A stretch of DNA of 42,044 bases from an uncultured Paraprevotella sp. (lineage in GTDB: Bacteria; Bacteroidota; Bacteroidia; Bacteroidales; Bacteroidaceae). Location of the stretch: contig CALUNJ010000012.1 of NCBI GenBank assembly GCA_944321975.1, positions 1 to 42,044 on the forward strand, read 5' to 3'. The translations under genes and the position numbers were made by a program. Positions within the stretch are counted from its first letter, which is position 1. Every line of letters starts with the position of its first letter. Positions 5,061-42,044 of the stretch are shown here, in pieces. Under the pieces are notes generated by a model, which was given only the letters and a program-made list of their open reading frames with translations, was not told the origin of the DNA and did not search any database.

Positions 5061-5367
5061 GCGGAATAGCACAAAATTGCTCCCGGGAGGAACGCAAATT
5101 TTTCTCTTGGGAAAAGTCGATGGACCGCTTGAGAAAAAAAAGTTAATCGCTTGAGAAAAGCCCACGTGTCTCAACAGATGTCGGCTCAATTGATTATCAA
5201 GCAAATAAGACTTTCCTTCAAAATAGGACAATATGGACTTGGAAAAAGAGATTACGGAAGGGGGAAAGGATGCAACGAGGGCAAGACCACATGGGAGCCG
5301 ACGAGGGCTATCCCCCTCCCACGCCAGGGGAATCCGGCACTGGGGTACGAAGGCCTATTAGGACAGG
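5061..5367 (+). repeat. Dispersed intergenic element, copy 1
   Basis: This is one of five related elements in the window. It begins with GAATAGCACAAAATTGCTCC and shows the AAATAGGACAATATGGACTT block at 5220-5239 followed by ACGGAAGG. It ends in GGTACGAAGGCCT, which it shares with copy 5. The left arm of the inverted repeat has decayed here; only CGCTTGAGAAAAAAAAGTTAATCG-type sequence is left at about 5126-5157. It lies between the end of the hybrid regulator gene and the start of the Cys/His-rich gene, both on the minus strand. No conserved reading frame is shared with the other copies. Confidence 0.8.
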
Positions 5368-12114: not shown

Positions 12115-12249
12115 TGAACACAAAATTAAATAAAAAGCGAATGCAAATTTAGGTGTTTTCTTGGGTCAGTAGACACATGGCGGGGGCTAAAAGTTTGCAG
12201 TGCCGAGGCTGAAGACGTTTCCGCTGTCTCGTGAAGGAAAAAATGCGTG

Positions 12250-12569
12250 GCGGAACAGGACAAAACCCCACTCAAGAAGAAGAAAGATTTCTCTCTTGAG
12301 ATTTACATTTTTTCTCAAGCCAAAAAAAAGTGAATCGCTTGAGAAAAATCCGCATGTTTCAAGAGTTTTCTTATTCCGTTGATTGTTAATAGAATAAGAT
12401 TTCCTTCAAAATAGGATCATATGGACTTGGGAGTGGTACTTACGGAAGGGAAAAGGAAGGGATGAGGGGAAGGCCGCATGGGAATCCGGTGAGGCTTGTT
12501 GTCTTCCCCGTCGGAGAAATCCGGCATGGAGGCGTGCGGAAACCGGTCATGCGGAGAAAGCGGAAAAGG
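12250..12569 (+). repeat. Dispersed intergenic element, copy 2
   Basis: This copy lies between convergent genes (the membrane protein and ogt). It starts GCGGAACAGGACAAAACC. A partly decayed inverted repeat spans about 12291-12343, with right arm GTGAATCGCTTGAG. The TCCTTCAAAATAGGATCATA block begins near 12391 and is followed by TACGGAAGGGAAAAGG. It then has CGGAGAAATCCGGCA near 12510 and ends GGTCATGCGGAGAAAG. The length and order of blocks match copies 4 and 5. Confidence 0.85.
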
Positions 12570-12642
12570 CACATTTCCCGTGGTGAAGAAGCGTGAGGCC
12601 GTTTCCCACCATATTATTTCTACCGCCCCTGTTCTCAGCCCC

Positions 12643-19889: not shown

Positions 19890-19958
19890 GCAGAATCAGA
19901 ATCATGAGGGGGATCGATGCAGTATGGATGGGGCGGGAATCTGTTTCCCTACCCAGTT

Positions 19959-20162
19959 TCGTTGCATCCTTTTCCCTTCCGCGAGCCCCACCCCCCAAGT
20001 CTAAATTGTTCTATTTTGAAGGAAATATTATTTTATTGACAATCAACAAAATAAGCACAACCTTGAGGAACATGGATTTTTCTCAAGCGATTCACATTTT
20101 TTTCTCAAGCAAAAAAGTGTGAATCGCTTGAAAGTAATTTGCATTCCTCTTCCTGACGTTGG
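19959..20162 (-). repeat. Dispersed intergenic element, copy 3 (3'-truncated)
   Basis: This copy is in reverse orientation between the convergent SUI1 and CE1 genes. Its inverted repeat spans about 20083-20131 (TCAAGCGATTCACA against TGTGAATCGCTTGA). On the minus strand the TCCTTCAAAATAGAACAATT block and CGGAAGGGAAAAGGATGCAACGA-type sequence follow, after which similarity is lost. The last 110 bp or so of the full element are missing or diverged. Confidence 0.8.
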
Positions 20163-30704: not shown

Positions 30705-31023
30705 GAAATAGGACAAAATGAACTTCTCAAGAGGAATGCAAATTCCCCTCAAGCGATTCACATTTTTTTCTCAAGCAAAAAAAATGTGAATCGCTTGAGA
30801 AAAACCCACTCCTTTCAAAAGACATTTATTTTGATGATTACTAATGAAATAGCTTTTACCCTCTGGATAGGAGGATATAGGCTTGGGAAGGGGGCCTACG
30901 GAAAGGGAAAGGGGGCGACGAGGGCAAGGCCGCACGGGGCGTGACGAGGCGACTCCCCCTCCCCTGCCGGAGAAATCCGGCACAGAGGGCACGCGAGTCT
31001 GTCATGCGCAAAAAAATGAAAAG
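30705..31023 (+). repeat. Dispersed intergenic element, copy 4 (best preserved)
   Basis: This copy lies between the convergent ompH-like and barrel genes. It begins GAAATAGGACAAAATGAACT and has AGAGGAATGCAAATT. A perfect 22-bp inverted repeat follows (30748-30769 with 30778-30799, around the loop CTCAAGCA). Then come GGATATAGGCTTGGGAAG, CTACGGAAAGGGAAAGG, CGAGGGCAAGGCCGCA and the small hairpin CCGGAGAAATCCGG. It ends GTCATGCGCAAAAAAATGAA. Every block recurs in the same order in copy 5 and most in copies 1 and 2. Bases 31024-31233 after it show nothing recognisable. Confidence 0.85.
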
Positions 31024-31233
31024 GAACACGCTCCTCCCTGAGGATAAAGCGGAAAACAGTCCCCCGCTGAGTTGCAACCGCCCTCCCGCTTTGGCAGCTT
31101 TCCGGGCAAGGTAAACGACCGCTTCCTGGCGCGATTCTGGCGGAGGGAGATGTAACCAGACAAAAAAGAGAGGGAAATCATTGCTGAAATCCCCCTTTTA
31201 CGCTGTGATCCCGGAGAAAACCCACTCCCCGGC

Positions 31234-41572: not shown

Positions 41573-41666
41573 AGTAGCATTCATCCTCCTTCACCAAGGG
41601 GGAATGCGGGGCAGCAGAGATATAGCGGGGAACTGTTTCCCGCTTCCCCCCACAAGGGGGATGCAC

Positions 41667-41984
41667 CCTTTTCACTTTTTCGCATGACAGGCCTTCGTAC
41701 CCCCGTGCCGTATTTCTCCGGCACGGGGGAAGGCGGCAACCCTCACCGTGGCTCCACGCAGCCTTGCCCTCTTCCCGTCCTTTTCCCTTCCGTAGGCGCC
41801 ATTCCCAAGTCTATATCGTCCTATTTCGAAGATGAATCTTATTTTATTAATAATCAAAGGCATAAGAACAGCTTGAAACACGCAGGTTTTTCTCAAGCGA
41901 TTCACATTTTTTTCTCAAGCCAAAAGAATGTGAATCGCTTGAAGAATATTTCCGTTCCTCTTGGGAGCGATTTCGTGCTATTCC
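41667..41984 (-). repeat. Dispersed intergenic element, copy 5
   Basis: This is a near full-length copy in reverse orientation after the glycosyltransferase operon. On the minus strand it reads GAATAGCACGAAATCGCTCC, then AAGAGGAACGGAAAT. The inverted repeat follows (plus-strand 41892-41942, TCAAGCGATTCACATT against its complement), then GAAATAGGACGATATAGACT, CTACGGAAGGGAAAAGG, GCCGGAGAAATACGGC, GGTACGAAGGCCT and GTCATGCGAAAAAGTGAAAA. It shares its start and GTACGAAGGCCT with copy 1 and its end with copy 4. Confidence 0.85.
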
Positions 41985-42044
41985 CGTCACACACTTTTCC
42001 AAGCACAAGCAGCCCCAAAGCCGCCGCAAGGAGAAGGCCATGGC

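Follow-up and report, generated by a model that had tools for sequence, protein, structure and literature searches.

An ISAon1-type MITE in an uncultured Paraprevotella carries short boxes at a 22-bp period, and arrays of the same period with other sequences occur in related genomes

The repeated block and its transposon ends

The window, as the whole analysed stretch of 42,044 nucleotides is called here, is the entire contig C12 of a draft genome of an uncultured Paraprevotella sp. (G000; 2.65 Mb, 171 contigs, 86% complete). At 30705-31023 it contains an intergenic block that an earlier note, made from the letters of the window, counted as one of five copies of a 320-bp element. All five blocks are present where they were reported, three on the + strand and two on the - strand (Table 1). 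The 21-mer CTCAAGCGATTCACATTTTTT has eight matches in the window at up to three mismatches and none in 100 shuffles. Further copies had been predicted beyond the window, and a genome search with the middle copy indeed gave at least 81 matches (40 of 225 candidates scored; both strands of the palindrome counted). A 42-bp palindrome core lies at 102 places genome-wide (up to three mismatches), the control, in which the pattern is read backwards, giving none.

Table 1. Copies A to E of the MITE in the window, with their terminal inverted repeats and their box arrays of 22-bp period
Feature	Position	Strand	Remarks
MITE copy A, internal part only	5061..5367	+	no recognisable terminal repeat (best 10/24 mismatches)
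Box array, copy A	5095..5163	+	exact boxes at 5126 and 5148
MITE copy B, end to end	12163..12629	+	467 bp
5' terminal inverted repeat, copy B	12163..12186	+	6/24 mismatches
3' terminal inverted repeat, copy B	12606..12629	-	7/24 mismatches
Box array, copy B	12286..12351	+	
MITE copy C, decayed	19916..20151	-	possible 3' terminal repeat 19916-19939 (8/24 mismatches); 5' end not recognised
Box array, copy C	20073..20141	-	
MITE copy D (block of the earlier note)	30705..31084	+	5' terminal repeat not recognised
Box array, copy D	30726..30807	+	exact boxes at 30726, 30748 and 30792, degenerate one at 30770
3' terminal inverted repeat, copy D	31061..31084	-	7/24 mismatches
MITE copy E	41608..42044	-	contig stops short of the expected 5' terminal repeat
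3' terminal inverted repeat, copy E	41608..41631	+	3/24 mismatches
Box array, copy E	41885..41951	-	

The size of 320 bp does not hold, since the copies resemble each other beyond the block, over about 100-125 bp more on its upstream side and, for some of them, about 100-130 bp more on its downstream side. Among 42 copies, in-register similarity begins about 100-125 bp before the block and is gone by about +450. These 42 copies were hits to the window sequence, and the conservation profile drawn from them therefore favours the core. Of 16 copies found by the terminal repeat, one sits at a contig end and was omitted; in the other 15, the array described below is still better conserved than the rest of the element (mean share of the commonest base, 0.85 vs 0.72).

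Matching terminal inverted repeats had been reported as missing, but they exist outside the coordinates of the block. The repeat is 24 bp long, GGRGCAGTAGRAATTTAGYGGGGA, and is inverted at the two ends (outer parts aligned). At up to 7 of 24 mismatches it is found at the 5' end of 33, at the 3' end of 30 and at both ends of 17 among 75 non-redundant copies, shares that are high because part of these copies was fetched via a terminal-repeat search; when each copy was shuffled once, one match appeared at each of the two ends. The 5' repeat lies mostly 87-104 bp ahead of the core, decayed copies included. Target duplications are testable in 22 of the 75 copies, which measure 279-538 bp end to end; the other 53 were excluded with an end missing, misplaced or too decayed. 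The 8-bp flanks are identical at 7 or 8 of 8 positions in five of the 22 copies (for example, AGAAGATG/AGAAGATG and CCCTCCCG/CCCTCCCG) vs 2 of 462 cross pairs, and a clear 8-bp duplication is absent in the remaining 17. Identity in the long matches between copies is only 71-78%, so that the copies are old.

The element itself is short and numerous (22 MITE-flanked arrays in 384 kb) and has no transposase within, as judged from the list of open reading frames. The report of no transposase falls at the level of the family, since an insertion sequence of the ISAon1 group (ISL3 family) with the same ends exists. In G007, a genome of the same genus, the same ends lie 1.42 kb apart and enclose two overlapping genes (L117:102-1524), of which the first belongs to the N-terminal ISAon1 family of NCBIfam (3.9e-35) and the second matches DDE_Tnp_ISL3 (PF01610; 3.1e-52) and the ISAon1 family of NCBIfam (5.8e-159), the NCBIfam pair being NF049916 and NF049917. 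An 8-bp target duplication is usual for the ISL3 family. The shared ends and the target duplications of 8 bp imply that the two-gene transposase of the insertion sequence spread the MITE through action on these common repeats. The MITE has the same terminal repeats and the same duplication as the ISAon1 group and differs in having no transposase. The element is thus a non-autonomous transposon (MITE) of the ISAon1 group, and the block is its inside; the MITE-like reading that the earlier note had offered among others was right. This identity is solid. As a member of the ISAon1-type MITEs it is new and of modest interest, and a MITE alone is ordinary.

An origin from a phage or plasmid was rejected, as phages and plasmids searched with the element gave no match and viral contigs held no exact match to the 21-mer. 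A protein scan of genome contigs found no relative. Exact matches to the 21-mer occur in contigs of Gastranaerophilales, Lachnospiraceae and Solibacter (L088, L089 and L090), and they may be due to chance or contamination or may be real.

Boxes at a 22-bp period within and outside the MITE

The most unusual part of the block, which the earlier note missed, is an array of short boxes. The conserved inverted repeat noticed there is present as a feature, although it is really one arrangement of this array. In G000, the boxes are 8 bp long, CGCTTGAG or CTCTTGAG or their complements CTCAAGCG or CTCAAGAG, and are separated by spacers of 14 bp, often AAAAAAATGTGAAT or its complement, so that a box starts every 22 bp. 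Both boxes and spacers occur in both orientations at one phase, and a run contains at most five boxes. The boxes are only partly palindromic, and the spacer is conserved as well, the same one being found at many loci. In 311,767 bases that were fetched for array cores, and are thus not random (one array, C15, is counted twice), 284 boxes give spacings of 22 (98), 44 (69) and 66 (40), with every other spacing up to 140 seen fewer than six times. In 384,057 bases of large contigs, chosen regardless of arrays, neighbouring boxes no more than 60 bp apart are spaced at 22 (31) or 44 (6) only.

This sample of 384 kb holds 32 arrays: 17 have both MITE flanks, three the tail only, two the leader only and ten none. 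Extrapolated to 2.65 Mb, it gives about 220 arrays and about 150 MITE copies, so that the guess of hundreds per genome was about right, although the sample is only about half as dense as the underlying figure of one per about 8 kb. Every MITE copy carries short boxes at an exact 22-bp period, and the array also exists without the MITE. Because ten of the 32 arrays have no MITE flank, the array is separable from the MITE. This bears on the reading that takes the array as part of the mobility machinery, with boxes bound by a transposase or by some other protein of a mobile element. Some transposases, such as those of Tn7 and Mu, do bind 22-bp repeats, and all leader and tail pieces of the MITE in the sample adjoin an array, none above 12 bits standing without one. 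Besides the arrays that lack a MITE flank, however, the related genome G002 has arrays but no ISL3-type terminal repeat at up to three mismatches, and the RAYT Y1 transposase (PF01797) has no match in G000 at its 86% completeness, while one of 18 genomes of the genus (G009) has one. A role in mobility is thus quite improbable, and the same lack of PF01797 in G000 speaks against a REP-type family of the RAYT kind, which had also been suggested.

The arrays are intergenic and not evenly placed. None of 44 arrays from G000, G002 and G012 lies inside a gene according to a codon-trained gene caller made for this analysis; a cruder first caller had put 23 of the 44 inside open reading frames, which were judged spurious, and that count was set aside. 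With three arrays at stretch edges, the 41 that can be placed fall into 19 convergent, 19 tandem and three divergent gaps, compared with 54, 152 and 78 among the 284 gaps of 90 bp or more that separate genes in the same DNA. The arrays are enriched in convergent gaps (Fisher p = 0.00025) and depleted in divergent ones (p = 0.0036). They avoid promoters, as REP elements and many MITEs do, and purifying selection by itself can give such placement.

The preference for gaps between converging genes also fits arrays that act as RNA, in which tandem small hairpins at gene ends would stop transcription or protect messages, like the enterobacterial REP/BIME elements of 3' regions. The hairpin of the window copy is very stable (-31.3 kcal/mol vs a shuffle mean of -6.4), and 36 of 63 arrays are in the top 5% of column-shuffled controls for palindromicity, the other 27 being mostly from G000 (9 of 15) and G012 (10 of 16). 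On the other hand, the array L163 of the same class reaches only -0.6 kcal/mol and three single units of G025 only -0.5 to -1.7, and one unit of G002 reaches -6.1, which is equalled by 19 of 200 shuffles. Complementarity between the arms shows no excess over column-composition shuffles in 40 units of G002, chosen by an exact TGCGCA centre, and 58 of G000, except at one distance in G002, which 35 of 2000 shuffles reach; apart from that distance, covariation was not found in these two genomes and was dropped as a proof of structure. An exact step of 22 bp is also unnecessary for RNA. An intrinsic terminator was rejected as a general reading, as the consensus hairpin has no run of T on either side and L163 does not fold. 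The only Rfam match of the window at gathering score is a tRNA at 169-241. The repeated non-coding RNA that the earlier note considered is not supported by the Rfam, L163 and covariation results, and a function of the arrays as RNA seems improbable.

The repeats also fragment the assembly of G000. Six fragments of ISAon1-type transposase, 94-100% identical, each lie at a contig end, as expected of a repeated insertion sequence; one has an internal stop codon, and the terminal repeat is listed beside four of them. Contigs C2, C11, C15, C58, C92 and C134 end inside an insertion sequence of the ISAon1 group, and C5, C6, C7, C9, C12 and C21 end within about 300 bp of an array. The MITE and its insertion sequence thus help explain where this assembly breaks. 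At the locus C91, the orthologous flanking genes in the three relatives examined (G009, G017 and G015) enclose a short gap with no MITE, but the gap itself cannot be aligned between genomes, so that a target duplication is not visible there. The MITE-free gaps of the converging pair (L328, L329 and L334) hold a GC-rich, terminator-like hairpin, and G000 (L327) has one beside the MITE. Contig C96 of G000 (L080) is 98.4% identical over 1.4 kb to C28 of G017 (L021), whereas one other locus compared between G000 and both G017 and G009 is 77-79% identical. C96 is therefore likely misbinned or recently transferred, judging from these identities, and the orthologous solo array shared by the two contigs was dropped as a proof of conservation.

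Arrays of the same period in related genomes

Arrays with other boxes were found with R1, a sequence-only model built from 26 arrays picked for exact 22-bp spacing. It matches CTCAGGCG in G012 (best E 1.6e-5), CTCAGGAG in G014 (2.4e-4) and CTCCTGAG in G015 (6e-7), and weakly a box GCGCAAG in G002 (E 0.015); its best matches in several other relatives (e.g. L185-L191, L203) look like chance. When stretches were scanned for tandem similarity at any lag, the strongest direct-repeat lag, multiples of 3 aside, was 22 in G012, G002, G025, G026 and G001, and in a stretch of G014 it ranked second. With arrays defined by an identity of 0.66 over 44 bp and low-complexity hits discarded, 38 arrays of period 22 are present in 2.02 Mb of 16 family genomes, in stretches that lie mostly on previously matched contigs rather than random ones and range from 18 kb (G018) to 400 kb (G012). 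Eleven of the 16 genomes have at least one array: seven each in G000, G012 and G002, five in G027, four in G025, two each in G022 and G001, and one each in G026, G008, G016 and G013. The sampled DNA of the other five (G014, G018, G005, G017 and G032) has none. Among the other lags from 14 to 40, those that are not multiples of 3 give 0-2 arrays each, and multiples of 3 give up to seven (lag 33). No array of period 22 was found in 246 kb of five genomes from five other families or in 150 kb of E. coli K-12. Some of the period-22 hits may be ordinary minisatellites; L320:1226 in G027, for example, has a near-perfect 22-bp period (0.93) and looks like one, not like palindromic sites.

In G025, which belongs to another genus, two arrays 20 kb apart (L272:8309-8749 and L273:8447-8887) share one order of sites: AAACAC-nn-GTGTTT comes first, AAGTAT-n-ATACTT second and the AAACAC type once more third (A, B, A). 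All of these sites keep to one 22-bp phase, and the 8-bp spacers differ between the two arrays. At least three palindromes occur among the arrays of this genome, two of them within one array. A G025 array used as a query has many relatives in G025 itself (12 of the 96 candidates were scored); at the sensitivity of blastn, none turned up among the 60 other genomes, which include 14 of the same genus. In G002, the site is approximately GTYTTGCGCAARAC, with positions 10 and 11 from the centre near random and position 9 weakly biased in units chosen by an exact TGCGCA centre. Among 28 neighbouring TGCGCA pairs up to 60 bp apart in this genome, 26 sit exactly 22 apart. Arrays of fixed geometry and private sequence are thus a wider class in the family, which is well supported as a pattern.

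Such arrays could be neutral minisatellites, trapped by the MITE in the way of the 23-nt repeat of BrickBuilt in Porphyromonas gingivalis (PMC4596501, in its available text), so that the step of 22 bp would come from descent and slippage with no protein involved. Apart from this precedent, the box and the spacer are common to the arrays of G000, as copying would give, and tandem 22-bp direct copies exist, as in L163. However, the same period recurs in other genera with unrelated sequences, the spacers of G025 differ within one array while the sites hold, and steps of 21 or 23 bp are nearly absent. A minisatellite origin is therefore considered rather unlikely.

A putative protein-binding array and its known counterparts

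Collectively, the element is most probably, albeit with moderate confidence, an ISAon1-type MITE carrying a 22-bp array of operator-like sites for a cooperative DNA-binding protein. The protein part, taken alone, is less certain than this whole picture, and from their sequence the boxes are putative operator-like sites. They would be bound by a dimeric protein that acts cooperatively on one helix face, 22 bp being about two turns. At its frequent sites in convergent gaps, the protein could serve to pack DNA, to insulate or to block transcription. Within each species, protein and box would co-evolve, and the MITE would have captured an array in the source species and multiplied it. Sites for a cooperative dimer are favoured because the consensus palindrome and the free spacer (in G025; the outermost positions are weak in G002) are combined with an exact two-turn step. 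Several observations count against this picture. The several palindromes of G025 are not easily explained by one protein, and the boxes of G000 are only partial palindromes with a conserved spacer. Also on this side are the five family genomes whose sampled DNA has no array, the 17 MITE copies with no clear duplication, the period-22 hits that may be minisatellites and the 27 arrays that fell short of their palindromicity controls.

A broader proposal, put forward tentatively and as somewhat short of probable, is that the intergenic arrays of the family might form a chromosome-wide nucleoprotein system. Their geometry, with palindromic sites 22 bp apart along the same DNA face, would be fixed, the site sequence would be species-private, and the site would change jointly with its binding protein. 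In the source species, the MITE would have captured and amplified this system. The class of arrays is not ordinary: a geometry common to different genera, combined with private sequences, points to a putative DNA-binding system in gut bacteria. If true, a transposon would be spreading ready-made protein sites through the genome.

Several known systems share some of these features. REP/BIME and REPIN are hundreds of short intergenic motifs in mixed orientation that tend to gene ends. The arrays described here differ in their fixed 22-bp period, in their larger carrier with ISL3 ends and in having no RAYT match in G000. Phased operator or iteron arrays of plasmids and phages consist of palindromic or direct sites about two turns apart that are cooperatively bound. 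They occupy one or a few control regions, whereas here about a hundred chromosomal gaps are occupied by a species-private sequence. In CRISPR arrays, unique spacers separate repeats of some 23-47 bp, and cas genes accompany them. Judged on repeat geometry, the present arrays are not CRISPR arrays, with boxes of 8 bp, spacers of 14 bp and the same spacer at many loci of G000.

The TAACTGA heptamer repeats, which occur in Beggiatoaceae, Cyanobacteria and some Bacteroidetes, are short words at many intergenic places. They are direct repeats of 7 bp, and in the Beggiatoaceae genome that was studied most of them immediately precede a start codon (PMC4679880). They resemble the present boxes as short intergenic words, but a 22-bp step is not described for them in the available text of that paper. 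The term ISL3 is absent from the accessible text of a review of prokaryotic MITEs (PMC10969869), and neither "22 bp" nor "Bacteroid" occurs in that of a paper on finding periodic repeats (PMC6344855). No description of 22-bp-phased arrays in Bacteroidales was found in the accessible open-licence literature, subscription papers being mostly outside this scope.

The nearest precedent, as far as the available texts go, is BrickBuilt of P. gingivalis, which is the only MITE named in the accessible part of a paper on the genomes of this species (PMC5771137). BrickBuilt is a MITE with IS5-type ends and internal 23-nt direct repeats (AGAYCATARTATCCTCTCRTRTG) in 1 to 22.8 units, and 19 copies are present in strain ATCC 33277 (PMC4596501, available text). 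The likeness lies in an intergenic MITE that is bounded by terminal inverted repeats and contains a tandem repeat whose unit spans about two helical turns. It extends to the distribution of the parts: the repeats of BrickBuilt are also found without leader or tail, and a leader or tail bearing the terminal repeat is never found without the repeat (PMC4596501, same text). The present element is not a member of BrickBuilt, as its period is exactly 22 bp and not 23, its sequence is another one and its ends are of the ISAon1 group of ISL3 and not of the IS5 type. It also differs from BrickBuilt as described there in that its boxes occur in either orientation, in its copy number of about 150 (extrapolated), and in the arrays of the same period and other sequence that occur across the family.
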